Positions 3,127 through 50,554 of a stretch of DNA of 64,000 nucleotides are shown here, piece after piece. Under the pieces are notes generated by a model. It worked only from the letters and a program-made list of their open reading frames with translations. It searched no databases and was not told the origin of the DNA. The first letter of the stretch is position 1. The number at the start of each line of letters is the position of its first letter. Source of the DNA: Verrucomicrobiota bacterium (GTDB taxonomy: Bacteria > Verrucomicrobiota > Kiritimatiellia > SS1-B-03-39 > UBA6053); the NCBI GenBank assembly GCA_020831625.1, contig JAFIGD010000002.1, positions 62,001 through 126,000 on the forward strand. Reading direction: 5' to 3'. Position numbers and translations under genes: made by a program.

Positions 3127-3471
3127 ATGTCGATCAACACCCGCTTTACTGATGACCACGACCACACCTCCGTTTTCGGATACCTCTGCGTGTTTGGCGC
3201 GCTGATGGTGCTTACGGTGCTCACGGTCCTGCTTTCATTTCTCAATTTTGGACTGCTGGGCGACGCCCTGGTGGCCACCACCATCGCGGTTTGCAAAGCC
3301 TCTCTGGTGATCTATTTCTTCATGCATGTCCGGGAAAGCCCCAAGATCATCGCGCTGATTGTCGTGGGCAGCTTCCTTTGGCTGGCAATTTTGTTCCTGT
3401 TTACCATCGCGGATTTCCGCGCACAGTACGGAACCGGTGCCTCCTCCATGCCGCCTGTGTTGCCCTGGTGA
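3127..3471 (+). CDS. coxD: Cytochrome c oxidase subunit IV (prokaryotic type)
   Basis: Small accessory membrane subunit of the oxidase, 114 residues, with three hydrophobic segments (about 20-42, 48-66 and 76-98). The middle one contains CKASLVIYFFMHVRESPK, the conserved family segment. An AACGAGGAGCG ribosome-binding region precedes the ATG. It follows coxC in the operon. It has no catalytic residues; assignment rests on size, topology, the KASLVIYFFMH motif and position. Confidence 0.9.
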   Translation: MSINTRFTDDHDHTSVFGYLCVFGALMVLTVLTVLLSFLNFGLLGDALVATTIAVCKASLVIYFFMHVRESPKIIALIVVGSFLWLAILFLFTIADFRAQYGTGASSMPPVLPW

Positions 3472-33726: not shown

Positions 33727-33840
33727 ATGTTTTGTGACATCATTTTATCAAAGGCCCGCTCTGCTCAAAAAAGCCTGCCGGGACGTATGCGTGAAATTTA
33801 TGATGAAAACGGCAAAGACATTTGGCCGGGCCGCATCTAA
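33727..33840 (+). CDS. Possible 37-residue leader peptide before the ECF sigma gene
   Basis: ATG at 33727 opens a short frame ending MREIYDENGKDIWPGRI at TAA 33838-33840, 17 bp before the sigma factor ATG. The C-terminal half has a balanced, protein-like composition, unlike random frames nearby. No ribosome-binding site or homologue is recognised. It could be a leader, a gene remnant, or chance. Confidence 0.2.
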   Translation: MFCDIILSKARSAQKSLPGRMREIYDENGKDIWPGRI

Positions 33841-33857
33841 AGGGTAACAACTTGATT

Positions 33858-34412
33858 ATGAAAGCGCCTCCAGATGCCCCTTCCGCGGAACAACGATTTC
33901 GAAAACATAAGGATCAGGACAGTTTCGAAGAACTGTACAGGGTTCACGCCTCCCTGGTCTATCGCATTATCGCCAAAATTGTTTTGGATGAGGGCGTTGC
34001 CGAGGATCTTTGTCAGGAGACCTTTGTGAAAGCCTACACGAAAATCGATCAGTTCACCGGAAGTGCCAGCTTCAAAACATGGCTGTGCCGAATCGCGGTT
34101 AACGGCGCCAACGAGCATTTGCGCAAAAAAATCACCGCCCGGACCCGTTTGCAGGTGCTGGCCGCTGATGCCGGAGGTGATTCCGGAGGAACGTGCCCCC
34201 GGCAGAGTCTGTTTTGGAAGGAGTCGTATCAGGGGGTCACGGCGGCGCTGGCCCGGTTGGAGCCTTCGCTGCGCACCGCGATCATTTTGACGGTGATGGA
34301 GGGTATGGATCCGGCGGATGCCGCGCGGGCGCAGGGCTGCAGCCGGGCCACGCTCTACTGGCGGGTTCATCAGGCCCGTAAACAATTAAAACAGGAGCTG
34401 GGTCATGCGTAA
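33858..34412 (+). CDS. ECF-type RNA polymerase sigma factor
   Basis: About 184 residues. Region 2 reads FEELYRVHASLVYRIIAKIV, then EDLCQETFVKAYTKIDQF and SFKTWLCRIAVNGANEHLRKK; region 4 reads ARLEPSLRTAIILTVMEGM and CSRATLYWRVHQARKQLKQEL. The linker (about 105-125) is Gly/Ser-rich. ECF factors redirect polymerase to envelope or stress promoters and are usually held by a membrane anti-sigma factor; the overlapping next gene (8 bases) encodes a single-pass membrane protein that fits the position. ATG at 33858; a TTG two codons earlier is better spaced from AAAGGG. Likely heads the cluster to 44.6 kb. Confidence 0.92.
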   Translation: MKAPPDAPSAEQRFRKHKDQDSFEELYRVHASLVYRIIAKIVLDEGVAEDLCQETFVKAYTKIDQFTGSASFKTWLCRIAVNGANEHLRKKITARTRLQVLAADAGGDSGGTCPRQSLFWKESYQGVTAALARLEPSLRTAIILTVMEGMDPADAARAQGCSRATLYWRVHQARKQLKQELGHA

Positions 34413-35121
34413 ATCCTCTGAGATTGATCCGATGTTGAAGGCGTGGAGTGAAAAGATTGATCAGGAACTCAACGGCAAAGCACCGCCTGTTCCACAGACT
34501 CCGGATGGAGGATCTTTAAGCACCACGCACCGTCGGCTGTTGCTTTTCCCCGCGCTGCTCGCGGCGGCGGCCCTCCTGGCGGTTTATCTTGCCGGGCCCC
34601 GGCGCTCCGCGCCGCCGGAGCCTTCGGAATCCGAAACCGCACAGCTTGAAAACGGTTTTGAGGCGTTGAAACCCTTTTTTCAGGAGCTGGTCCGTCTCTT
34701 TCCCCATCAAACCCTCTGGCTGAGCGGGGAGGGCTCCGGGCTTGAGATGCAAGGTCCGGGTTCCGCTGAAGGGCGGCAAAGGATTGTGCTTCGTGTCGAA
34801 CTGCAGCAGGAAGGGCCGGACGGGAGCTGGAACCCGATCTGGCAACGGGACGTGCTCACGCATGAGGAATCCTGGGTGGATATGCAGGATCAACCGGCCT
34901 CGGAGGAATCCGCCTCCTTTTGGGTGGTCGGTTTGGAAACCGACACCTGGCTGGTGGAGACACATCTGCGAATACCCGGAAATCCGGCCGGTTCGGTGCG
35001 GAAACAGTTGACGCTGCGGCGGTCCGGCTCCCTCGCCGCCGATGCGCAGGTGGAGATTTCTCCCGGTGTGCGGATGGTTCAGCGTCTATTACCCCTTGAT
35101 GAAAGCGGGGAAAGCGCGTGA
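34405..35121 (+). CDS. Single-pass membrane protein, putative anti-sigma factor
   Basis: 238 residues. A cytoplasmic N-terminus of about 44 residues (MRKSSEIDPMLKAWSEKID) is short for an anti-sigma domain but positioned like one, followed by one membrane helix (about 45-63) and a periplasmic domain of 170 residues (FEALKPFFQELVRLFP, VGLETDTWLVETHLRIPG). No zinc-binding HXXXCXXC motif is present. The start overlaps the sigma gene and its stop overlaps the next start (GTGA), so it is translationally coupled both ways. The anti-sigma assignment is from position and topology only. Confidence 0.6.
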   Translation: MRKSSEIDPMLKAWSEKIDQELNGKAPPVPQTPDGGSLSTTHRRLLLFPALLAAAALLAVYLAGPRRSAPPEPSESETAQLENGFEALKPFFQELVRLFPHQTLWLSGEGSGLEMQGPGSAEGRQRIVLRVELQQEGPDGSWNPIWQRDVLTHEESWVDMQDQPASEESASFWVVGLETDTWLVETHLRIPGNPAGSVRKQLTLRRSGSLAADAQVEISPGVRMVQRLLPLDESGESA

Positions 35122-36035
35122 GGGTCTGGCTGCTCCTGCTGTGTCTGCCGCTCTGGGCGGAATCACTGGTCCTTCCACCCCGTTTGCTCACGCACGGGCC
35201 GGAAATGGAATTGACGCTTTCCGCAACGGAATTCCCTCATGAAGCCCTGTATTGGCGTTTTGTGTTTGAGGGGCGGACGTTGTCGCAAGGGACCGTGAAT
35301 CTGGACGAAACAGGGAGGGCTCTTCTTCGTTTTCAAACGCCGCCGCCCCGTGAGGGGCTTCCTCTGGCGCTGGAATTACGACTGTCGCTGTCGCGGAACG
35401 AAGCGCCCTCACAGGGGCATAAGGTCTGGGTGTTTCCGGAGGATCCCTGGTTCGGGGGCAAAGACCGGCTGAAGGCGTTGCCGCTTTGGCTTTATGATCC
35501 GATGGGAGACACCGCGGCCTGGATGGAGCGGCACGCGATTCCGTTTCGGCGCGTCCGCGACTTCGGGGAGGTCTCTTCCGGGGTTTTACTGATCGGCGAG
35601 GGGCTGCCGTTCCGGCGGTATCCTGATTTGATGGGCCGTCTAACCGAAGTGTCCGGCTCCGGTATTTCTGTATTGGTGCTTCCGCCCGCAGACGGTTTGC
35701 TGGACTTGCCTGCCTCCGGTGCTGATTCTCCGCGGCCGGAAATACGTTTTATCGGCATGACGTTTCTTGAGGAACTCGATCCCCGTTTGCAGGGGGGCGG
35801 CTTTTCAGCGCGGTATTACAATTTGGAGGCGGATCGGGGCCGGGTGTGGCTGAAGCCCGGCGCCGGGGAAGGGTGGCCCTGGGTGCGTTTCAGGGAAAAA
35901 GGCGGCGCGCCGGTCTTGTTTTGCGGCGTGTCTCTGACATCTTATGAACATGACTCGCCCGCGCCTCAGCTTTTGTTGCAGGCCCTTTTACATCATGTAC
36001 GGGAGGCTTCGCCCAAAACCACCAAGACACCGTAA
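35118..36035 (+). CDS. Secreted protein of unknown function in the ECF cluster
   Basis: 305 residues from a GTG overlapping the previous stop. MRVWLLLLCLPLWAESLVLP is a signal peptide. Residues about 30-110 look like a beta-rich domain (LYWRFVFEGRTLSQGTVNLD). A second part alternates strands and helices: LPLWLYDPMGDTAAWMERH, GVLLIGEGLPFRRYPDLM, GISVLVLPPADGLLDL and FCGVSLTSYEHD, loosely resembling a class I glutamine-amidotransferase-like fold without an evident catalytic Cys. I do not recognise the family. Overlap with the putative anti-sigma gene ties it to ECF signalling. Confidence 0.65.
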   Translation: MRVWLLLLCLPLWAESLVLPPRLLTHGPEMELTLSATEFPHEALYWRFVFEGRTLSQGTVNLDETGRALLRFQTPPPREGLPLALELRLSLSRNEAPSQGHKVWVFPEDPWFGGKDRLKALPLWLYDPMGDTAAWMERHAIPFRRVRDFGEVSSGVLLIGEGLPFRRYPDLMGRLTEVSGSGISVLVLPPADGLLDLPASGADSPRPEIRFIGMTFLEELDPRLQGGGFSARYYNLEADRGRVWLKPGAGEGWPWVRFREKGGAPVLFCGVSLTSYEHDSPAPQLLLQALLHHVREASPKTTKTP

Positions 36036-36163
36036 TGGCCGAGATTGAAGATGATATGAATATTTCTTTGATGTCCTCATTCTCACCGGATTGAGTGTGT
36101 GCGGTTCGGTGGATTGTGACGTTGCTACAGTTAATTCCCATACCCAAGCGATCGGAAAACCAT

Positions 36164-39100
36164 ATGTACAGGACCCGGATTCGAAAGTGTTCCCTTGTCT
36201 ATAAAGTGCGCGTCTTTTGCTCGCTCTGTTTGGCGGGCGTTTGGTTTCAGACGCACCTGATGGCGGAGGAGCCCGGCGGTACGCCGGGTGTGGCACTGCT
36301 GGCAATGGACGATTCGGCCCGGGTTTGGGTGGAGTTATTTTTGGGCCGTCATGAGCTGGAAGGTTTTGTTCTGCTGGACCGAAGTGCCGGTGAGGCATTG
36401 ATGGAGGAGCGAAACCTTTTATTGAACGCGCGTCGACCGGACGCGGGGGGATTTGATCTTCAGCGGTGGGTTTCGGCGGATATTCTGGTTGTGATTGAAT
36501 CTTTTTTGGATGCTGAAGGGGAGGCGCGCCTGCTTTGGGTCCGGGCCCTGGATGCCGTCACCGGCGTGCGTTTGGCCGATGAGATTCTTGAGGTGCAACC
36601 CGAAAAGCATGAAGAGGTGTTAAAGGCGGTCGACGGCGTTTTACGTGAAAAAATCCAGCCCTCCTGGAGCGTTCTGTGGGGAGAGGGAAAGACGTTCGCC
36701 GGTGTGGCTTTGCTGGATATCCGTCTTGTGGGTGCGGGAGAACAGGACCGATACGTTTTTTCATCGTTATCCATGCTTTTACAGCGCCTGATCGTCCGGA
36801 ATCCTGAGGTGGTGCTTTTGGAGAGAACGCAGTTGGAATCCCTCCTCAACGAAGAGGCGTTGAGTCCCGCGCTTCGCATGAATTTACAGTCAAGCCTGGT
36901 GTTGATTGAGGGGGGGATTCATCAGGAAGCGGAGGGGGCTTTCTTTACGTTGAAAGGTATGACTCCGACAAACAAGCGCATATTTGAGGAGACCTTTTCT
37001 TTACGGGAAGGGGTGATGCCCGTCGATATCGCGACGCGGGCGCTTGAGCTGTTGGCGAAGCATCTCCCGGATATTACACCGGATGTGTCCCGGGATTTAA
37101 GGGGGGAGGCAAGGCGGTTCCATCGCGTGGCCGGATACTATCTGGAGCGAAGGGATTACGAACGGGCCCGGGAAGCCGCCACCGCCGCATATGCCCTGAA
37201 TCCCGGGGACCGCGAAAACATGCTGATGCTCTATGACGCATCCTATATGCGGGCACTTCATGACGTTTCAGAAATGAAGGGTCCGGAATTTCGGGAGCTG
37301 GATGACCTGCTCCGTGATATCCGGAATTTTTTCCAGTATCTTCCCACGATCGACCGGATTTCGGGAAGAAACAGGACAAGCGGACAGGCTTTGGTCAGGA
37401 CTGTGGATGAGCGGTTTGGGAATCTTATTTCAGCGGATGCACGGTTAATGATCCTCTGGAGGGATATCGGGTTGATTCTCAGAAGAAGCCTCGATGGTGT
37501 CAGGCCGGAACAAGGCGTTCCGGTGGACATCTTCACCCCGGAACATCTCGATTTATTCATTCAGACACATCTCAGCATGTATCGCCCATTGTCCGTGCAT
37601 GATTTGAGATTGTTTTTCGGAACAAATCCGGACGGCACTGAATATCGAAAGGATGAACGCTTCCGGCAGCCGATTCTGGATTTAATCCAGTTAATGGAAA
37701 ACAGGCCATATATACGAATAAAAAGAGCAGGATCAGACCGGGCTCAACAGTATAATGCGTTGGATGACCTTTATGCCCGGCACCTTACGCTTTCGGTTTT
37801 GAATTTCCTTGCCAGTCATTTTGATGAGGCTCGAAAAAAACAAACAGTCAATCACTTGCGCCAGTGCGCCTGGTTGCTGGTTGAAGATCCCTTGCGCTGG
37901 TCAGTGGGCACATATGCGGATTTTAGAAGATTTCCAGTCGAGTTTCGGGAAACAATTGTGGAGGTCTATAAAGAAATTCGCGAAGAGATTGAAGGGAAGG
38001 GGTGGCTTGTCCCGGAGTTATACGCCATGGACAGCCATGATCAGTTTCCCCGTTTGGCGGAAAAAGCAAACGATCCGGGAATTCGGTTGGTCAGCAATTC
38101 GGTTGAGCCCGGAGCATATTCTTCTTACAAAGAAAAATTGATTGCCCGTTTTCTACACCTGCCGATTCGTCCCCATTCCAGGCAGGTTTGGATGGAGCGT
38201 ATGCGTGCAAACGGGCCTTCAATAGACGATAAGGAGATCAGGGTTATCCGTCCCAGGGGCCCACGTCCACCCGGAGGATACATCCGTAAGCCCCTGCACA
38301 ATTATGAGCATTTTAAGATCTGGAATGATAATTTTATTGCCCATGTTGATCTTTACCCGGAAGAGACCTACGCCAGAGAGGCACTTGAGGTGTATGAAAA
38401 AAGCGATGAGGAGATCCGACTGGTTAAGACGGTGCGGTTTCCTCATGACGGAGTGGAGAATGACATCGACGTTTTAAACGAAAAATCATTTTATCAGGTC
38501 TTACTGGGCGGCAGGAATCATTTGTATTATTCCCATCGACACAGCCTGTACCAGTTTGATGAGGAAATGAACATGATCCGGAGAATGGATTTGAGAGACT
38601 GGAATTTCCCGGACCATATGGTGGCAAATCTTTTGGAAATCCCCGGAGGAATTCTGGTGGTGCTGACCAAACGTTTTCTGTATCAAACCCGTGATTCCGA
38701 AGGCCGGATTATGAGATGGGAACTTCGAAATAATGGCGGGGTTGTGGTACTTGCCGACGAAAATCTGGAGATACTCGAAGTCCTGGCGAACATTGACCGA
38801 CCCTCTCCAGAGAATGATTTGGACCGCTTCGGCCCCTTCGACGGGCATGCGATGTATGAAGATTCGGAGGGAAACATCATCCTGGGTGTCGCACCCGCAG
38901 ACTCCGATCAGCCTCCCTGGTTTGCACTCTCCTGGTTTGAAATCGGAGAGGATCGGGTACCCCGCCGGAGACAGCCCCCTGAAGAAAAAGAGAGTATCTC
39001 CGTATGGGCAAGCAAACTTGGACTGGATCCGGAGGAGCCGCTTTTCAAACATATTGTGAATTTCTGTGTCGGAAATATCAGAACCGGGGCTATGAGGGTT

Positions 39101-40381
39101 GCTTATCTGCCCGGAAGCCGCCCCAGCCGTTCAAGGGAGTTCAGAAGAATTGTGCCGTTCGGAGAAGGCTTTCTGGTGCTGACGTTCTCTGAAAAACAGG
39201 TCCTGTCTTTATTTTATCTGACGGATCAGCATCGTATTGATGAAGGATATCTTGTTCGTTCGTTCCCGAAAGAACACTTTAATGCCATCTCGCTTTGGGG
39301 AGAAGATGTGGTTTTGAGAGGGTATATTCATCAAAATGATCGATTAATCCGAAAGGAAGCCCTCGAAGCCTTGATACTTGGCGGGAATCGGGATCGACCC
39401 TTTCCAGACGCGGAACACTTGAAAGATCAAACCGCTTTTCAAAAAAGAATTCGGGACAACATTTTTCCGCATATTCCGCCGCCGGTTTCTTTTCCTGACC
39501 CCGAGCCTTTGGATCACTTTGTGCCGGTTACGGGGGCGACCTTTCCTCTGCATCCATTAGGTGGAAATCAGAATGAAAAGACTTCGATCACGCTTTCCGC
39601 CTTTAAGATGTCTGAAACCATGGTCACGCAGGAAGAATTTTTCAGGGTCTATAAGTGGGCGGTCCATAATGGATACCGTTTTTCAATAAATTTTCCAGGG
39701 GCATTGGAGACCCGAAGCTGGTGTGATTCTCAGGTGAATATCCCCGAACGGCCAGTTTTTTGGATTAATCCCTTGAACGCTTTGCTTTATTGCAATGCCA
39801 GAAGCGAATGGGAGGGGTTGAAACCGGCATATTATCTCGATAAAGAACACCGTGAAATCCTTCGCAGAGCCGAAGGGGATTACCTGTGGGGGAAACGGCA
39901 CAGCGAAGCGTATGTGGATTGGAATGCAGGATACCGTTTACCGACTGCGGCAGAGTGGGAATATGTGGCGCGGGGCGCGGACCCGGAACATGATACGAGA
40001 TACCCCTGGGGAGACACGATTTCGCATGATCTCGCGAATTATCTCGCCTCCGATTTTTTCACCTATGACCTCAGTGATGGCGGGCTTCATCCCGTGTATG
40101 CGGGGAATAATCCGCCGATCGCTCCCGTGAAAGCATTTCCTCCACACGGTTTTGAGAACCGTTTTTATGGGCTGGTGGGTAATGTGAGCGAACTCGTCTG
40201 GGAGCGGCGTGAGGACTTCCAGTATAATGCCGAGGGCATCCGGCGTCGGAGAAATCCTGTACAGTCGAGAGGCGGGAACTGGGCCTCGCTCGCTGAAAAT
40301 CTTTGTATCCAGGCCCCACCCTCTTCACGCTGGGATACTTTCATTTATCAAGGCTTCCGTGTGGTTCTGCCGGAGGAGTGA
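36164..40381 (+). CDS. Giant secreted protein: CsgG/FlgO-like, TPR and SUMF1 domains
   Basis: 1405 residues from ATG 36164 (GGAAAA upstream; signal-like CSLCLAGVWFQTHLMAEE). Residues about 40-290 contain two tandem FlgO/CsgG-like units (VALLAMDD, FVLLDRSAGEALMEERNL; VALLDIRL, VVLLERTQLESLLNEEAL). A TPR-like pair follows (YYLERRDYERAREAATAAYA), then a long helical region, a beta-propeller-like stretch (about 760-1080; YYSHRHSLYQFDEEMNMI, GGILVVLTKRFLYQ), and a C-terminal SUMF1 domain (about 1120-1405; YRLPTAAEWEYVARG, LVGNVSELVW, SRGGNWASL). Only one of the two catalytic Cys of true formylglycine-generating enzyme is near the right place, so it is probably not an oxidase. The cluster partner at 41485 shares the front architecture. 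Confidence 0.7.
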   Translation: MYRTRIRKCSLVYKVRVFCSLCLAGVWFQTHLMAEEPGGTPGVALLAMDDSARVWVELFLGRHELEGFVLLDRSAGEALMEERNLLLNARRPDAGGFDLQRWVSADILVVIESFLDAEGEARLLWVRALDAVTGVRLADEILEVQPEKHEEVLKAVDGVLREKIQPSWSVLWGEGKTFAGVALLDIRLVGAGEQDRYVFSSLSMLLQRLIVRNPEVVLLERTQLESLLNEEALSPALRMNLQSSLVLIEGGIHQEAEGAFFTLKGMTPTNKRIFEETFSLREGVMPVDIATRALELLAKHLPDITPDVSRDLRGEARRFHRVAGYYLERRDYERAREAATAAYALNPGDRENMLMLYDASYMRALHDVSEMKGPEFRELDDLLRDIRNFFQYLPTIDRISGRNRTSGQALVRTVDERFGNLISADARLMILWRDIGLILRRSLDGVRPEQGVPVDIFTPEHLDLFIQTHLSMYRPLSVHDLRLFFGTNPDGTEYRKDERFRQPILDLIQLMENRPYIRIKRAGSDRAQQYNALDDLYARHLTLSVLNFLASHFDEARKKQTVNHLRQCAWLLVEDPLRWSVGTYADFRRFPVEFRETIVEVYKEIREEIEGKGWLVPELYAMDSHDQFPRLAEKANDPGIRLVSNSVEPGAYSSYKEKLIARFLHLPIRPHSRQVWMERMRANGPSIDDKEIRVIRPRGPRPPGGYIRKPLHNYEHFKIWNDNFIAHVDLYPEETYAREALEVYEKSDEEIRLVKTVRFPHDGVENDIDVLNEKSFYQVLLGGRNHLYYSHRHSLYQFDEEMNMIRRMDLRDWNFPDHMVANLLEIPGGILVVLTKRFLYQTRDSEGRIMRWELRNNGGVVVLADENLEILEVLANIDRPSPENDLDRFGPFDGHAMYEDSEGNIILGVAPADSDQPPWFALSWFEIGEDRVPRRRQPPEEKESISVWASKLGLDPEEPLFKHIVNFCVGNIRTGAMRVAYLPGSRPSRSREFRRIVPFGEGFLVLTFSEKQVLSLFYLTDQHRIDEGYLVRSFPKEHFNAISLWGEDVVLRGYIHQNDRLIRKEALEALILGGNRDRPFPDAEHLKDQTAFQKRIRDNIFPHIPPPVSFPDPEPLDHFVPVTGATFPLHPLGGNQNEKTSITLSAFKMSETMVTQEEFFRVYKWAVHNGYRFSINFPGALETRSWCDSQVNIPERPVFWINPLNALLYCNARSEWEGLKPAYYLDKEHREILRRAEGDYLWGKRHSEAYVDWNAGYRLPTAAEWEYVARGADPEHDTRYPWGDTISHDLANYLASDFFTYDLSDGGLHPVYAGNNPPIAPVKAFPPHGFENRFYGLVGNVSELVWERREDFQYNAEGIRRRRNPVQSRGGNWASLAENLCIQAPPSSRWDTFIYQGFRVVLPEE

Positions 40382-40495
40382 ACCCTAAAATAAATGAATA
40401 ACACTGCCAAGACAACAACCGCTCACGCATCTATAGGTTAAAGAGAGTTTAATGACCGCTGACACGAAACACGAACACCCTGAATGAGGCCCGCT

Positions 40496-41431
40496 ATGAA
40501 AAAGATGATTCCCTGTATGCACCGCTTGTTTTTACTTTGGTTCTGTCTCGGTTGCGGCCTGGCGGTTCGGGTGGCGGCGGAGCCTGTGATTCCGGCCGCG
40601 ATTCTGCCCTTCAATGAGTTGGGCGACGGCGTCAAGGGTGAAGGCCCCAAAGTGGGTGTGCTCCTGTTTGCCGAGTTGATCGCCCAGCCTCATCTTTATT
40701 TGGTGGAACGCGAGGACCTCAATAAAGCACTGCAGGAGCAGGAACTCAATCTTTCCGGTCTCGTCGGTCCCGGGGAGGCGGTTCGGGTGGGGTATCTGAC
40801 CGGCGCGCGGATTTTGATTACTGGTTCGCTGATCGAAAGCGGGAATGCCCGGTTTCTGGTGGCCAAGGTGATCGGCACCGAGACCAGCCGGGTGCTGGGC
40901 GCCTCCGTGCGCGGCACCCGGGACAGCTCCACCGAAGGGCTCACCACGGAACTGGCGGAAAAGATCGTCACCCTCCTGGAAGAGCGGAGCGGTGAACTGC
41001 TGCCGAAGGTGGTCGATCCCGAAGACCGTATCCGTACGTTGGTAGAGGCGCTTGAAGGGAAAGAACTGCCCGCCCTCAGTATTCAGATCACTGAAGAGCA
41101 CATCGGCCGACAAATCATCGATCCCGCCGCGGAGACGGAAGTGCAGCGCTACGCCCTCGGCGCCGGTTTCACGGTGGTGGAGCCCGGAGAGAAGGCGACC
41201 TACTGGCTGGTCGGGGAGGCCTTCAGCGAGTTCGCGGTGCGCCGGGGGAATCTGATCAGTGTGAAAGCCCGGGTGGAACTGAAAATTCTGGATGAAACAA
41301 ATCAGGTGATCGCGGTGGACCGACAGACCCGCGTGGCCGTGGATTTGGCGGAGCACATAGCCGCCAAAACCGCCCTGCAGGAAGCCGCCGCCGACCTTGC
41401 CGAACGCATGTTGCCGCGCCTGGCCAAGTAA
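40496..41431 (+). CDS. Secreted CsgG/FlgO-like protein
   Basis: About 311 residues from MKKMIPCMHRLFLLWFCLGCG, a signal peptide (GAGG before ATG). The sequence matches CsgG/FlgO-type periplasmic or outer-membrane components: PAAILPFNELG, GVLLFAELIAQPHLYLVEREDLNKALQEQEL, then VGYLTGARILITGSLIESG and ARFLVAKVIGTETSRVLGASV. CsgG proteins form secretion pores for curli and related fibres; FlgO-like ones sit in the outer membrane. No curli subunits are present. A C-terminal domain (about 200-311) repeats a similar alpha/beta pattern. It lies between the two giant proteins. Confidence 0.8.
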   Translation: MKKMIPCMHRLFLLWFCLGCGLAVRVAAEPVIPAAILPFNELGDGVKGEGPKVGVLLFAELIAQPHLYLVEREDLNKALQEQELNLSGLVGPGEAVRVGYLTGARILITGSLIESGNARFLVAKVIGTETSRVLGASVRGTRDSSTEGLTTELAEKIVTLLEERSGELLPKVVDPEDRIRTLVEALEGKELPALSIQITEEHIGRQIIDPAAETEVQRYALGAGFTVVEPGEKATYWLVGEAFSEFAVRRGNLISVKARVELKILDETNQVIAVDRQTRVAVDLAEHIAAKTALQEAAADLAERMLPRLAK

Positions 41432-41484
41432 GCCCGGCGTCAAAAGCGACGGCTGTAAGCACGACCTTTTCAAAAAGGAAAATC

Positions 41485-44400
41485 ATGCGTGATCCGATAA
41501 ACAACCGAATCCCTTTTTATGACAGGGTCGTCTATTCACACATCCTGTTTCTTTCTTTTTTTGCGCTGGGGACCTTTGCGGATACGGGTCTGAGTAACCC
41601 TCCTGTACGCTTGGCGATTGTGGAGAAAGACTCGACAGATCCCGATTTCCTCTTGTTTTCAGATCTGCTCTTTGCAGAAATGTCTCTCCGTCAGGATCTC
41701 GAGCTTGTTGACCGAAAGCACATCAAACTGATCCTGGAAGAGCATGATCTTTCGGCGGAGTTCTCTCCTGAGCCGGATCAGAACAGGTTCTCGTTTGATC
41801 ATCTGTTCGCGGCGGATGCCATTCTGCTCCTCAGTACGGAGATGACCGATGCAGAAGAATCCTTCACACGGGCACGCCTGCTGAATACTCACCTGGGGCT
41901 TAAACTTTTCGATGTGCTTTTTGAAGCCGATCCCGGCTCGGATGCGACAGAGGATATGCTTGAAAAATTCGCCGCGCACGTGGCGCAGCATATCGGGAGG
42001 TTCAATTTACCGATTGAGGACGTGCGGCTTATTGGCGTCTCCACATTCCGCAGTGAGGAGGAATCCTCCCGATGGCAGTGGCTGAGTGATACAATTCCCG
42101 GAGCGCTTGAAAGGTATCTTTCTTTACATCAAGGTGTTGTTTTAATGGAACGTCACGCAGTCGCCCCGCTTCTTGAAGAGCGAAGACTGGTCTCCACTCT
42201 GCCTGAATCCATTCATGCTTCCAGTCTGCTGGTGGACGGTTCGTTTCGGATCAATCATGAAACCGGAGAACTTATCCTCTGGATCCGGGCCCGCCAGGAC
42301 GGCATAATCATCCAGGAATTCAAGGTGGAAGGGCCTCTGGAACGTCTGCACACGCTCTGCGCCGACGTTGCCAGGCGGCTGGTCTCCCTGGGCGATACAA
42401 AGTTTGCGTTCAAAGCCATGAATCCGTCTCTGGAGGCGGAGATGCTTGTGCATGAAGCGGCCATTTATCAGAGGCGGGGGCAACTTGACCGGGCCCTGCC
42501 GGCATTGGATGGCGCATATGCGCTCGCGCCGGACTCGGTTGAAATACAGCGGTTGTTGCTGAGGAACCGGATTGCAAAGAAACTCGGCCATGGTCTCAAG
42601 CAAGACCCCCGGGTGGGAGTGGACTGGGAAACGCTGCACTGGGCTTTCACAATGGCGGAACGTATTCTGCAACATCCGTCCGTTCCGGTTTCCGGCTCTG
42701 CGCGTCAGGACATTGAAATTTTTCAGGCGGTTTCTTCGTTTCTCAGTGCCGTCTCTATCTCTTTGTCGCGAAAGCTGAGCGTTGACGAACCTTCGTCTGA
42801 TTTTCAGGAAACGGTCTCGCGATATTGGGAACTGATGGCCCTCAGCCGTGATGTTTATGCCGGTATATCCCCCGCGAACCATCGGCGCCTGCTTTATCAA
42901 TCGAGCCAGATACTTTATATTACCCCGGATGTGGATGAAAGCCTGCGGATTACAGACTGGATTCTTGCAGATTACGAAGCGATTGACTCTGAACCGATCG
43001 TGATTTCCACTTTGGTGGATGCCGTGAAGACGTTTCATTCCGAAAACCCGGCCGGGCTGGAAAAAATTGAAACCTATCTGCATGATTTGCGGGGTGCCGA
43101 CCGGGTTGACACCCGTTTGACCGCCTTGAAGGGGAGTATTCGGTTCTACGCCCACGTAATGCAGGATTACGGCCCGGCGAGGGAATTCGCGAGGGAATAT
43201 ATTGATCTGGCAGGACGGAACCAGCGAATAAATCCCCGAGCGATTTCGCTTCACCGTTTTGCCGAAGACGACACGGCCAACGATGTTTACCGCGCGGAGT
43301 TTTTGTCCGAAATCCTCCGCATCGCTTTCGATGAGGATTTGCTGAATTTAAGCACAGCGAGCCGTTGGGTCAGTTGCACGCTTCGGCTCGCCGATCATCT
43401 TGAGAACCTGAATCGTCCCGACGAGGCTCTGGAGTGGGTGAGGAGGCTGATGCAGGTGTATGACCGGCACCGATCGACGCAATGGCAGTACCTCCGGGAC
43501 CGCGCTGTGGCCTTGGAAAGCCGCTATTTCCAAGAAGAGGCTGTGCCACTGCCCGGTCCGTCCAGACAGAAAAAACCCGAGTTGATGATTTCACACCATG
43601 ACGCCGTTTTCGCGGACAATGGCCTGCACCGCATCAGGTTTCTGCGGGCGGATCATGTGAACAGTTTTCCGGTCCTGCTTTTCAGCACGGGTCAAGAGAT
43701 CGGGATTGTGCGGTTTGACGGACCGGACGCGGATTCTGTTTCAATTCAGACGCATCCCCGCCCTTTGCCGAACATCGATCGCCGTTTCATTGGCGCATGG
43801 GAGCGGGCAAATGATGCCGTGATGGCGGTTCACGGGAACTCGGTTTTTGTCGGGCTCCCGAATGACGGAATTGTCGGATTTCATCCCGATGGAAATATCG
43901 AGGTTCTGAACGAAGACCATGGGCTTGCCTACAACCGTATTCGTCACATGGCGGTTCTGGGGGATTATCTCTACGCGATTACCGGTGCGGTGGGTGAAGA
44001 CAGCGGCATATTGGAAATCGACCTGCGCACCCGTCAAACCAGAATGCTCGCCTCCAGTGGTTCGGAGCGCCGAAATCCCGTGCTGGACGGCCGCCGGATC
44101 AATGGAATTGCCGCCGATCCGGAGCATGGAGTCTTGTGGATATATTCCTCTCATAATCTTCTGGATAATCGATATGATCCGAAAATTGTTCGCTACACTC
44201 CAAGGGATCAAACATACCGCATTTATGAAGACGAGGCATTGACGGCTTTTCTGCGGGGATCTTATTCAACGGATAATGCGGGTTCTCTTGGGCTGTTCGG
44301 TAATGCCCTGTTGATTCGAAACGGCAGCGGACTTTATCGTCTTGATTTGAAGGACAATTCCGGTGAGGTGCTTGTAAAGAGCTTCGGACGCACAACCTGG

Positions 44401-44649
44401 GACTTCCCCAGACGGTACAGCGGGCATCCTGTGGTTTTGTTTGAGGGCGGAATGGCGAGTATGGTGTTTGATCAACTCGTGTTGTTTAAAGAGGGGCTCC
44501 GGGATCCTGTTTTTGTTCCCACAGAATGGTTTTCTCACGTTGGAGGACGCACTCCCCGCATCATTCGACTGTTCTCCAGCCCTGGAGAGATATTGCTGCT
44601 GGCTTCCAATGCGCTTTACCGAATTCGGGAACCTGAAAAAATGTATTGA
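41485..44649 (+). CDS. Giant secreted protein: CsgG/FlgO-like, TPR and propeller-like domains
   Basis: 1054 residues. AAAAAGGAAAATC precedes ATG; YSHILFLSFFALGTFADTG is the export signal. The N-terminal 300 residues have two FlgO/CsgG-like units (LRQDLELVDRKHIKLILEEH; GVVLMERHAVAPLLEERRL), as in the 1405-residue protein. A TPR-like region (AAIYQRRGQLDRALPALDGAYALAPDSVEIQ) and a helical centre follow. Residues about 690-1040 form a propeller-like region (NSVFVGLPNDGIVGFHPDGN, YLYAITGAVGEDSGILEID). The SUMF1 domain is absent. The likely role is envelope sensing or assembly; this is inferred from context. Confidence 0.7.
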   Translation: MRDPINNRIPFYDRVVYSHILFLSFFALGTFADTGLSNPPVRLAIVEKDSTDPDFLLFSDLLFAEMSLRQDLELVDRKHIKLILEEHDLSAEFSPEPDQNRFSFDHLFAADAILLLSTEMTDAEESFTRARLLNTHLGLKLFDVLFEADPGSDATEDMLEKFAAHVAQHIGRFNLPIEDVRLIGVSTFRSEEESSRWQWLSDTIPGALERYLSLHQGVVLMERHAVAPLLEERRLVSTLPESIHASSLLVDGSFRINHETGELILWIRARQDGIIIQEFKVEGPLERLHTLCADVARRLVSLGDTKFAFKAMNPSLEAEMLVHEAAIYQRRGQLDRALPALDGAYALAPDSVEIQRLLLRNRIAKKLGHGLKQDPRVGVDWETLHWAFTMAERILQHPSVPVSGSARQDIEIFQAVSSFLSAVSISLSRKLSVDEPSSDFQETVSRYWELMALSRDVYAGISPANHRRLLYQSSQILYITPDVDESLRITDWILADYEAIDSEPIVISTLVDAVKTFHSENPAGLEKIETYLHDLRGADRVDTRLTALKGSIRFYAHVMQDYGPAREFAREYIDLAGRNQRINPRAISLHRFAEDDTANDVYRAEFLSEILRIAFDEDLLNLSTASRWVSCTLRLADHLENLNRPDEALEWVRRLMQVYDRHRSTQWQYLRDRAVALESRYFQEEAVPLPGPSRQKKPELMISHHDAVFADNGLHRIRFLRADHVNSFPVLLFSTGQEIGIVRFDGPDADSVSIQTHPRPLPNIDRRFIGAWERANDAVMAVHGNSVFVGLPNDGIVGFHPDGNIEVLNEDHGLAYNRIRHMAVLGDYLYAITGAVGEDSGILEIDLRTRQTRMLASSGSERRNPVLDGRRINGIAADPEHGVLWIYSSHNLLDNRYDPKIVRYTPRDQTYRIYEDEALTAFLRGSYSTDNAGSLGLFGNALLIRNGSGLYRLDLKDNSGEVLVKSFGRTTWDFPRRYSGHPVVLFEGGMASMVFDQLVLFKEGLRDPVFVPTEWFSHVGGRTPRIIRLFSSPGEILLLASNALYRIREPEKMY

Positions 44650-44700: not shown

Positions 44701-44790
44701 GCGCGGAACGGGACGAGCCCGTTCCTTGCTTTTTCTTGCGGGCCTGTCGTGGAATAAGATGTTTCGCAGCCCCGGGGCAAGCCGGGGTTT
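44701..44790. repeat. Double-hairpin intergenic repeat, copy A
   Basis: GCGCGGAACGGGACGAGCCC then GTTCCTTGCT forms a stem (GGAACGGG/CCCGTTCC), followed after about 40 bp by GTGGAATAAGATG and a second stem around CCCCGGGGCAAGCCGGGG. Copy C at 58880-58970 has the same two-hairpin layout; copy B at 47050-47080 has only the first hairpin. Confidence 0.85.
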
Positions 44791-47082: not shown

Positions 47083-47907
47083 TTATGCGCGGCGGATGGC
47101 ATCGATTTGGGCCAGGGCTTCGGGCGCGAGGGGGGCGGCGTGTCGGGCGGCGCTGAGAAAGGCTTCGAAGTGGTCGAGGGAGGCGGTGCCGCCGATGGTG
47201 CCGCGGATTTCGGGAACACTGGCGGCGAGATTGAGGGCGAGGCGCACGGGGTCGGTTTCGGGGAAGGCCCGGGCGATGGCGGCGCGTTTGTCGGCCAGTT
47301 TCGGATCCTGTCCGCCGCCGAGGGTGCGCAGGGCGAGCACGGGAATGTTTTCGGCCTGAATCGCGGCCCAGGCGGTGTCGGTGACTTCGCGCTGCGTGGC
47401 GTTCCAGTAGAAGGTGATGCCGTCGATGAGGGGATGGCTTGCCGCCGCGACGCCGGCATCGGCATTGGCCGGGGTGAGGAACAGCACCGCTTTTTGAATC
47501 AGTCCCCGCGCTTTGAGGGAGGCGAGTTCGTCGAGCAGCGGGCCCCGGTTTTGGTTGAGCTGATCGATGAGGCAGCCGGGTTCGTGGCTCATGGAGGTGA
47601 GCTGGGCGATGGGCAGGGTGTCGAGTCCCAGACGCAGGAGGCTGTCTTCGGTTTCGAAGCGCATGAGGGTGGGGGATCCGTCGCGGATTTTGAGGATCAT
47701 GTCGGGAACGTGCGCGCGGTCGGCGTCGAAGGCCAGCTTGAGGGTCATGAAGCTGAACCCGTTGTTGTAGGTTCGGCTGCCGTGGAACCAGATGCCGGCC
47801 TCCATGGCGCGGCGGAGGAGGGCGAGATCGGTTGCGGGGTCCGCCGGATCTTTGCCAAGGGACATGGTGCCGAAGATGTAGGGGGAGACGTTCATGGCGG
47901 GCCGCAT
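47083..47907 (-). CDS. Aldo/keto-reductase-like protein with altered catalytic residues
   Basis: 274 residues. The TIM-barrel AKR pattern is visible: YIFGTMSLGKDP, RRAMEAGIWF, KIRDGSPTLMRFETEDSLLRLGLDTLPIAQL and IRGTIGGTASLDHFEAFL. Compared with the AKR tetrad, Tyr (in RTYNNG) and Lys (in MILKIRDG) are kept. The Asp position in the FFDTA block reads WFHGS, and the His after the LQL block reads LTS. A normal reductase reaction is therefore doubtful. The ATG shares a base with the stop of the upstream GH42-like gene (TGATG), so the two are coupled and the substrate is likely a sugar. Confidence 0.75.
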   Translation of the reverse strand: MRPAMNVSPYIFGTMSLGKDPADPATDLALLRRAMEAGIWFHGSRTYNNGFSFMTLKLAFDADRAHVPDMILKIRDGSPTLMRFETEDSLLRLGLDTLPIAQLTSMSHEPGCLIDQLNQNRGPLLDELASLKARGLIQKAVLFLTPANADAGVAAASHPLIDGITFYWNATQREVTDTAWAAIQAENIPVLALRTLGGGQDPKLADKRAAIARAFPETDPVRLALNLAASVPEIRGTIGGTASLDHFEAFLSAARHAAPLAPEALAQIDAIRRA

Positions 47908-50114
47908 CAGGCGCGGGGGACGCGGAGCCAGCGGGCACTTTCGGGCGCGAGTTGGATCTCGGAGAGGCTGACCTCCTCGCCGGTGACGGCGTCGATGACG
48001 GGGCCGGCGGGCGGTTCGTTGAGGTCGAGGACCGCATTGAACGGGAGGTTGTATTCGTTGACGAGCATGTAGTGATCGGCGCCGGGGGCGGCGAGGCGGT
48101 AGACGATGGCTTCGTCGCAGCGGTGCGGAATGCGGGCGGGATCCACCACGGCGAGTTCGCGGATGAGCTGTTCCATGGCGGTGTTGCCGGGAAGGCAGCA
48201 GTTTGTGGAGGCCTCCGCGCCCAGAACCACGGCGGTGCCTTCGCCGAGCGTGTTCTCGGTGATGGCGGGCCAGGCGCGGTCGTCGTACTCGGCGAGCACG
48301 CGGGCGGTGGTGGGGGTCATGCAGGCGGTGAAGCCTTCGAGATCGTGTCCGTGGATGGAGAAGGTGGTGTTGACGGGTCGGGAGTAGGCATATTCGTTGA
48401 GTTCGACCCCGAAGAGGGTCTCGAATTTGGAGCCGGCGGCGGTGGAGAGCACGCGTCCGTAGTTGTCGATGTAGGCGGCGGGCATGTCCATGACCACGCG
48501 TCCGCCCTGTTGCACGTAGGCAATAAGGTTGTCCAGCAGGTCTTCGGTGAGGCAGAGGAACGCGGGCAGGTAGATGCAGGCGTAGCGGGGGGCGAGGCCT
48601 TTGCCGATCTGTCGGGCGGTGACGTGTTCCCAGGGGATGTTGCCGTTGATGAGGGCGCGGGAGGCGCCGATGCGGGCGCGGATGGGGTCGGATTTGTATT
48701 TATCGCGTCCGGTGACGGACATGGCGGCCCACATGGCCTCGTTTTCCCAGTCCTGGAGGACACCGACGAGGGGTTCTTTGTCGGCGTTCCAGAGTTCGCG
48801 GCGGTAGGCGCGGGCGGCGTTGCCGATGGCGCCGGCGAGGCGGGCGCGGGGGGTGATCTTGTTGTTGCGGTCGAGGAGCATGAATTCGCCCGCCTCCCAG
48901 CCGGCGGTGCGTCCGTTCCAGGTCCAGAGGCCAAAGCCGCGGTACCCGGCGGCGAGCCAGCTGAGCATAAGAATGGACTGAATGCCCTCGTGGCAGGTGT
49001 GGCCGGGGGTTTTGTCGGCGGCCCAGGGAACGAAGGGGGATTTGCCGCCGGAGAACCAGCTGGGGCCGCCGGAGCTTTCCCAGGTGGCGTTCCAAATGCC
49101 TTTGCCCCAGTCGGTGGTGAGGGCGGCCTGCATGTACACCGGACGGGCGACTTCGAAGTGGACTTCTTCAAAGTGCCAGGTGAGGTGGATGGAGGGATAA
49201 AAACTGCCGCCTTCGGCCATGACGTCGGCGATGCCCTCCATGTCGGTGCCGCGGGAGGCGAAGGGGAGGAAGAGGCCCATTTCGCCGCCGGCGCGGACGG
49301 GGACGCTGGGGTTGCGGGCGTGCTGGCGGTCCACGGCGGCCTGGATGTATTCTTTCAAATAGGTGTCGGACCGGAAGCGCATTTTATCGCGCAGGTTGCG
49401 GTAGTCGCGGCCGTGGACATCGGTTTCCATACCGGCTTCGACATCCTCCCAGGTTTTCCAGTCGAGGAGTTTGCCGTCGAGGCCGACGTGTTCGACGTTC
49501 CAGGCTTTTTTGAGGGTTTCGACATCGCCGTACTGCTCTTTGAGCCAGGCGACAAAGGCGGGAATTGCGTCTGGGTGAATATCGTGTCCGCGCACATCGC
49601 CGACCACGCCGGGGGTGCGTTCGGCGAGGGCTTTGATCTGTTCGCGGGTGAGTTTGGATTTGTCGACCTGCGGTTTGGGCTTTTTAGATTCCGCGAATTC
49701 GCCGATCTGCTTGCGGATGACGCCTTGTTGATAGGCGATCATGTCCGGATGCTCCATGGCGGCGTCGATGTCCATGTCGGGATCGAGACCGAGTTTGGCG
49801 AGCAGTTCGGGGGTGATGTCCTCCCAGCCGCCCTCGGCGTACCAGAAGGGGTAGACGCCTTCGTCGAGGGCGATGTTGAGGATGCGCTCAGTGGGCCAAT
49901 CGGGGAGGAGGGGCATGGTCTGTTTGAGGCATGTGAAGCCGTGTTCGCGCATGCGGCGGAGTTCGGCGCGGCAGGTTTCCTCGGTCATGCCGGGCCAGGG
50001 CAGAAAGACGGCGCCGACGGGCATGGGGGCGAGCTTGCGGAGCTTGCGCTGCATGGGGGTGTCGGTCAGTTCGAGAATGCGGCGGCGAAGAAAGGGGTCG
50101 GAGGATGTGCTCAT
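47907..50114 (-). CDS. GH42-like glycoside hydrolase (putative beta-galactosidase)
   Basis: 735 residues from MSTSSDPFLRRR. The barrel region includes GVYPFWYAEGGWEDITPELL, IPAFVAWLKEQYGDVETLKKAWN (the typical GH42-like WL-x-x-YG-x-x-x-x-x-x-x-AW pattern) and an acidic residue in ATWESSGGPSWFSGG that could be the nucleophile. A beta-galactosidase trimerisation-like domain follows (about 505-650; CIYLPAFLCLTEDLLDNLIAYVQQGGRVVMD) and a beta C-terminal domain. No signal peptide is visible. Substrate not certain; I am surer of the family than of the sugar. Coupled to the AKR-like gene. Confidence 0.75.
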   Translation of the reverse strand: MSTSSDPFLRRRILELTDTPMQRKLRKLAPMPVGAVFLPWPGMTEETCRAELRRMREHGFTCLKQTMPLLPDWPTERILNIALDEGVYPFWYAEGGWEDITPELLAKLGLDPDMDIDAAMEHPDMIAYQQGVIRKQIGEFAESKKPKPQVDKSKLTREQIKALAERTPGVVGDVRGHDIHPDAIPAFVAWLKEQYGDVETLKKAWNVEHVGLDGKLLDWKTWEDVEAGMETDVHGRDYRNLRDKMRFRSDTYLKEYIQAAVDRQHARNPSVPVRAGGEMGLFLPFASRGTDMEGIADVMAEGGSFYPSIHLTWHFEEVHFEVARPVYMQAALTTDWGKGIWNATWESSGGPSWFSGGKSPFVPWAADKTPGHTCHEGIQSILMLSWLAAGYRGFGLWTWNGRTAGWEAGEFMLLDRNNKITPRARLAGAIGNAARAYRRELWNADKEPLVGVLQDWENEAMWAAMSVTGRDKYKSDPIRARIGASRALINGNIPWEHVTARQIGKGLAPRYACIYLPAFLCLTEDLLDNLIAYVQQGGRVVMDMPAAYIDNYGRVLSTAAGSKFETLFGVELNEYAYSRPVNTTFSIHGHDLEGFTACMTPTTARVLAEYDDRAWPAITENTLGEGTAVVLGAEASTNCCLPGNTAMEQLIRELAVVDPARIPHRCDEAIVYRLAAPGADHYMLVNEYNLPFNAVLDLNEPPAGPVIDAVTGEEVSLSEIQLAPESARWLRVPRA

Positions 50115-50554
50115 AAAAAAGATTCCGGATTCAGGGTTCAATAAAAAAATTTCTCAATAGTGCGGGTAGAGGGGATAAAAGCAGGTTGGGGAAAAAATTC
50201 AAGCGGAACCCGAGGTTTTTGGAGAAACAGAGCCGGCCCGTGTCGGCGGCGTGCTGTCTTTTCCGGAGAGTCGCTCAGATTTGTTGGATGATTTCCTGGG
50301 TGACGTGTGATGATTGGGTTGGACGCCACCACGCTGATTGCCTACGAAGTCAAAGAAAACATTTCGTTTGAGATGTGGGCGTTGGGTTCTTCCGAAGGAG
50401 TATGATAAAAGAGCGTTTATCTTTATCGTAATCCTGATCATAATCGGACCCTGAAATAGATTTTCAGTCGATTAGGATTACGAGCACGATTATGAGTACG
50501 GGAAAAAAAGTTTAGTGGGGATGAAATCATTATGGGGGAATAGCCCCATCTGAT
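50115..50554. other. 440-bp gene-free stretch with inverted repeat
   Basis: No gene with coding-like composition is seen. The segment is AT-richer than its neighbours. It holds a near-palindrome: CGTAATCCTGATCATAATCG (50427-50446) against CGATTAGGATTACG (50469-50482) and CGATTATGAG just after. It probably carries the promoter of the GH42-like operon at its left end and the transcript end of nothing obvious at the right, since the heparinase-like gene is read towards it. Confidence 0.55.

Follow-up and report, generated by a model that had tools for sequence, protein, structure and literature searches.

A conserved ECF sigma factor gene module with secreted CsgG/TolB-N-like proteins in Planctomycetes, Verrucomicrobia, Lentisphaerae and Kiritimatiellota

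In the window, that is, the whole stretch of 64,000 nt analyzed here, an ECF sigma factor gene is followed by genes of a membrane protein, two smaller secreted proteins and two giant proteins. This raises the question whether the six genes form one regulated unit and what such a unit may do in the cell envelope. From the arrangement of the genes, their promoter motifs and the domains of their products, all established computationally, we observe a real, repeatedly conserved gene module of Planctomycetes–Verrucomicrobia–Lentisphaerae–Kiritimatiellota (PVC) bacteria that combines an ECF switch with secreted proteins. No description of it has been found in the papers searched for CsgG, ECF, FGE and PVC combinations.

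Gene order and distribution of the module

The sigma factor gene (33858..34412) overlaps by 8 bp the gene of a single-pass membrane protein (34405..35121), a probable anti-sigma factor, and the latter overlaps by 4 bp the gene of a secreted protein (SEC family, 35118..36035). Then follow the genes of giant A of 1405 aa (36164..40381), a CsgG/LpoB/FlgO-like secreted protein of 311 aa (P0005, 40496..41431), and giant B of 1054 aa (41485..44649). All six lie on the plus strand, and the open reading frames reproduce the order and overlaps claimed in the earlier note. A terminator-like hairpin is located 3' of giant B (44705..44725, plus strand); it is a consensus match only, and such patterns also arise by chance. 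The scanned flanks, with genes of the carbamoyl-phosphate synthase small chain and a zinc peptidase upstream and an alpha-amylase family gene on the opposite strand downstream, are unrelated to the module. Also outside the module, the minus strand of the window (47907–50141) encodes a 744-aa protein with a beta-galactosidase trimerisation domain (PF08532). Chance clustering of the six genes was rejected on synteny and promoter evidence.

Among 346 genomes of the class Kiritimatiellia, 82 encode P0005 relatives, weak domain matches included, and roughly 27 of those 82 encode full-length orthologs, hence the distribution in the class is patchy. The genes around these relatives repeatedly stand in the order sigma–anti-sigma–SEC–CsgG-like–giant(s), with SEC identified by profile search in 29 Kiritimatiellia loci, anti-sigma in 20, and sigma in 19, and giant A is placed between SEC and the CsgG-like gene both in the window and in a same-genus genome (G003). 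A scan of GTDB species contigs yielded 166 P0005 relatives; among the best 80 of these 166 loci, kept for counts, SEC is found in 76, sigma in 46, and anti-sigma in 42. The record titles of these 80 loci name Planctomycetes, Verrucomicrobia, Lentisphaerae, Kiritimatiellota, Omnitrophota, one Gilvimarinus isolate and one Desulfobacterium MAG, and no relatives were found in the viral contigs searched. The distances among the four small proteins correlate (r 0.54–0.63), which fits co-inheritance and is inseparable from plain vertical descent.

The recurrence of the gene order in Kiritimatiellia and in Planctomycetes, Verrucomicrobia and Lentisphaerae records bears out the expectation that the sigma pair and the giants co-occur. 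Contrary to the opposite possibility raised in the earlier note, that they are unlinked in relatives, linkage recurs, but several loci retain the SEC, CsgG-like and giant genes without the sigma pair. When seven genomes of the class, all with a sigma-less CsgG-like locus, were searched with the sigma factor of the window (P0001, E ≤ 1e-12), no matches were obtained in G181, G078, G075 and G081, and G061, G038 and G018 encode sigma factors elsewhere in the genome, only 29–32% identical to the query. Therefore, the SEC/CsgG-like/giant part is the core of the module, and the sigma pair is its frequent, not obligatory, attachment.

Several loci show variant arrangements. G003 carries two sigma–anti-sigma–SEC sets on separate contigs (L055 and L012), and in a Verrucomicrobia subdivision 3 record (L119) six tandem CsgG-like genes follow sigma and SEC. 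In the Gilvimarinus isolate contig (L135) SEC, CsgG-like and giant genes adjoin a transposase-like gene, possibly indicating lateral acquisition. Lone giants with the module N-terminus occur in L010 and L011, with no sigma, SEC or 311-aa gene called in the examined stretch; the 311-aa genes of G008 and G010 are on contigs other than those of these giants.

Sigma factor, candidate anti-sigma factor and promoter motifs

The 184-aa sigma factor (Pfam, NCBIfam) consists of region 2 (Sigma70_r2, E 2e-16) and region 4 (Sigma70 r4_2, E 7e-9), and containing only these two domains it falls under the definition of ECF sigma factors used here (PMC8103513). The AAC –35 element, a hallmark of ECF promoters that is no longer considered defining (PMC8103513), is absent from the module consensus, TCAAAGA / GTCTAA. 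Autoregulation is common among ECF sigma factors (PMC8103513).

A candidate promoter P1 (AAAGA-N17-TCTAA, 33814..33840, plus strand) is located 18 bp upstream of the sigma start codon, and the motif is also found upstream of the sigma genes of relatives: of 50 regions preceding sigma genes, 22 contain AAGA-N17-TCTA (mean 0.13 and maximum 2 in shuffled sequences), the spacing being nearly always 17. In 1.41 Mb of loci the strict form of the motif has 31 occurrences, 27 of them before module genes and 23 of those before sigma, compared to nine occurrences, none before module genes, for the reversed pattern in the same loci. The conserved position of this motif suggests that the sigma factor may be autoregulated from its own promoter.

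The second candidate promoter, P2 (CAAGA-N14-GCATCTA, 40408..40433, plus strand), precedes the CsgG-like gene, and a matching site is found in the same place in G003 (L012). The family form, AAGA-N14-GCATCTA, has exactly two sites in the 4.9-Mb genome, at window positions 33815 (sigma) and 40409 (CsgG-like gene). In relatives it occurs at sigma and at other places too, and in genomes lacking the module its frequency is about that of chance. L060, L072 and L099 also have similar ECF-type sites upstream of giant or CsgG-like genes; on the minus strand of L072 promoter copies are at 140–171 and 3407–3438, one before a divergent giant and another near the contig edge. Thus, computed motifs before both sigma and CsgG-like genes agree with the proposal of the earlier note that the cluster is controlled by its sigma factor. 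The place it proposed for the promoter, 36036–36163, has no ECF-type site, and this prediction is not supported, because the second site sits at 40408 instead.

The candidate anti-sigma factor (P0002) has a single TM segment (residues 45–63) preceded by ~44 residues, presumably cytoplasmic, and followed by a predicted periplasmic domain of ~170 aa. The one-TM topology is retained in 41 of 42 relatives, with two segments in the remaining one, in line with the suggested anti-sigma role, which we infer. Neither the protein nor its relatives match known anti-sigma families in Pfam. The cytoplasmic domains of class I anti-sigma factors (ASDI) are ~100 residues long and often contain a zinc motif, and class II (CnrY-like) factors have a short two-helix N-terminus wrapping sigma. 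With ~44 residues and no Pfam match, P0002 does not fit the former type. The mean ASDI length is 101, and domains shorter than 50 are possibly of class II (PMC7406223). The N-terminus of P0002 is possibly minimal, of class II type, judging by its length.

Compared to RpoE–RseA, SigW–RsiW and CnrH–CnrY, the module has the same two-domain sigma factor, an overlapping gene of a one-TM partner and, as autoregulated ECF systems do, a promoter motif ahead of the sigma gene. It differs from them in the partner, which fits no known anti-sigma family, in the –35 element (CAAAGA/CCAAGA rather than AAC), and in the linked genes, which constitute an undescribed envelope set.

CsgG-like protein, giants and SEC

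The 311-aa protein belongs to a strongly conserved family, which is conserved better than any other in the module. It scores 29.9 bits with the CsgG domain (PF03783, cut-off 20.8), the match ending at profile position 99 of 210. All 23 aligned family members match CsgG, 18 match LpoB and six FlgO (the latter two mostly weakly), and one of the 23 matches TolB_N. The single sequence has no match among PDB sequences, and its profile gives only weak CsgG matches there. In profile comparison the N-terminal half of the protein aligns with each of the two N-terminal units of giant B, whereas the C-terminal half does not and forms a separate conserved domain, additional to the LpoB/CsgG/FlgO-like part; no internal duplication was detected, leaving one recognisable CsgG-like unit. 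A second CsgG-domain protein with a far stronger Pfam match (E 1e-20) is encoded outside the cluster in the same genome (L001, G000:C52:22399-22980).

The CsgG secretion channel is a lipoprotein with a lipobox, and its transmembrane beta-hairpins form a barrel. Unlike it, the 311-aa family has no conserved N-terminal cysteine in the alignment. No long insertion is present in the profile alignment of the 311-aa protein to giant B, and in the AlphaFold2 model of giant B short turns join the strands, leaving no room there for CsgG-type hairpins. Hence, of the CsgG/FlgO relationship assumed in the earlier note the family assignment stands, given the CsgG, LpoB, FlgO and TolB_N matches, but an export pore of CsgG type is not supported, since membrane hairpins and lipobox are not seen.

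The giants share homologous N-terminal regions of ~360 residues (BLASTP 2e-8). Giant B contains two mutually homologous FlgO/TolB-N-like units, CsgG-like in profile comparison, and TPR_14 above the Pfam cut-off; its AlphaFold2 model, of moderate confidence (mean pLDDT 68.6), comprises two alpha/beta units, a helical repeat and a beta-propeller. The architecture previously proposed for both giants agrees with the N-terminal homology and, as to the order of elements in giant B, with this model. TolB structures are among the Foldseek matches of the model, the matches being partial with TM-score about 0.35 by target length. Like TolB of the Tol–Pal system, giant B as modelled combines TolB-N-like alpha/beta folding with a propeller; unlike TolB, it has two units and a long inserted helical repeat, is ~2.5 times larger, and has giant relatives with variable tails, and no Tol–Pal genes are seen adjoining the cluster.

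The SUMF1 domain reported for one of the giants is indeed present at the C-terminus of giant A (residues 1136–1401, PF03781, E 1e-19), with FGE structures matched in PDB, and has the fold of FGE/SUMF1 proteins, also seen in GldK/PorK. Catalytic FGEs have a cysteine pair in the closing motif, whereas giant A by inspection has a single cysteine, and the domain is therefore probably not catalytic. In 41 giants Pfam identifies CsgG in 23 and FGE in five, and WD40-type propellers, ankyrin, EF-hand or FG-GAP in single ones. The giants have N-terminal units in common and variable C-terminal tails (FGE, WD40, ankyrin, EF-hand). With them, the TolB/LpoB/CsgG fold family comes to include giant proteins whose tails are interchangeable.

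No other gene accompanies the CsgG-like gene as constantly as that of SEC. The AlphaFold2 model of SEC (pLDDT 91.4) consists of an Ig-like/LacZ_4-type beta-sandwich and an alpha/beta domain; relatives show weak DUF4350 matches for the latter, and PDB structures match only the Ig-like sandwich, mostly partially.

Possible roles of the module

We consider it probable (about 0.6) that the ECF sigma and anti-sigma factors of the module form an autoregulated pair devoted to the adjoining envelope genes, which would encode a periplasmic assembly of TolB/LpoB type. The anti-sigma factor would tether sigma at the inner membrane via its short N-terminal segment until an envelope signal at the periplasmic domain causes release; the freed sigma would then use P1 to transcribe its own operon, and P2 to transcribe the CsgG-like gene with giant B. 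The products would be exported. In the periplasm, the 311-aa protein and the giants may come together through their CsgG/FlgO/TolB-N-like units in a common, probably oligomeric, dock, and the giants would bind envelope partners, as TolB and LpoB do, with their propellers, helical repeats and variable C-terminal domains. The envelope role, in sensing or assembly, is suggested by analogy with the known roles of TolB, LpoB, FlgO and CsgG. The loci devoid of the sigma pair count against this explanation, as the envelope part can therefore work without the sigma switch. A broader version, a PVC-wide envelope machine with swappable-tail giants on a CsgG/TolB-N-like dock, assembled with the 311-aa protein and SEC, and with its own ECF sigma switch sensing its state, is more tentative and less likely than not.

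Instead of being the output, the secreted proteins could also serve as the sensor. A periplasmic sensing complex of SEC, CsgG-like protein and giants would then act on the anti-sigma factor, as RseB does on RseA, and the regulon would mainly replenish this complex. Confinement of the strict family promoter form to the cluster in this genome, with no wider regulon therefore apparent, and the overlap of the anti-sigma gene with that of SEC, the most constant CsgG-like partner, point in this direction, but the envelope part persists in several loci lacking the sigma pair, and sensing for this sigma is therefore not its sole role; we regard this explanation as rather unlikely. Still less probable is a surface, attachment or glycan-related structure in which the tails, of propeller, FGE-like, FG-GAP and lectin-like kinds, would attach to extracellular ligands. 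Variable tails of ligand-binding type on a common N-terminus and the LacZ_4-type sandwich matches in SEC would fit it, but no adhesin, polysaccharide-synthesis or export gene recurs in the few neighbourhoods inspected gene by gene. A sigma-controlled outer-membrane secretion pore of CsgG type, with giants as cargo or accessory proteins, is the least plausible and quite unlikely: CsgG is matched throughout the aligned 311-aa family, but the P0005 match covers less than half of the profile, long hairpins are seen neither in the profile alignment to giant B nor in the giant B model, and the lipobox cysteine is not conserved.

The dedicated sigma/anti-sigma system with a periplasmic assembly, as preferred here, is of interest as the module recurs in several bacterial phyla whose cell plans are unusual and whose envelopes are poorly understood. 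The defined sigma factor, predicted promoter and small closed set of candidate targets make it directly testable in cultured carriers, which include isolate B1221 with the sigma pair, and Rhodopirellula and Aeoliella with the envelope part.
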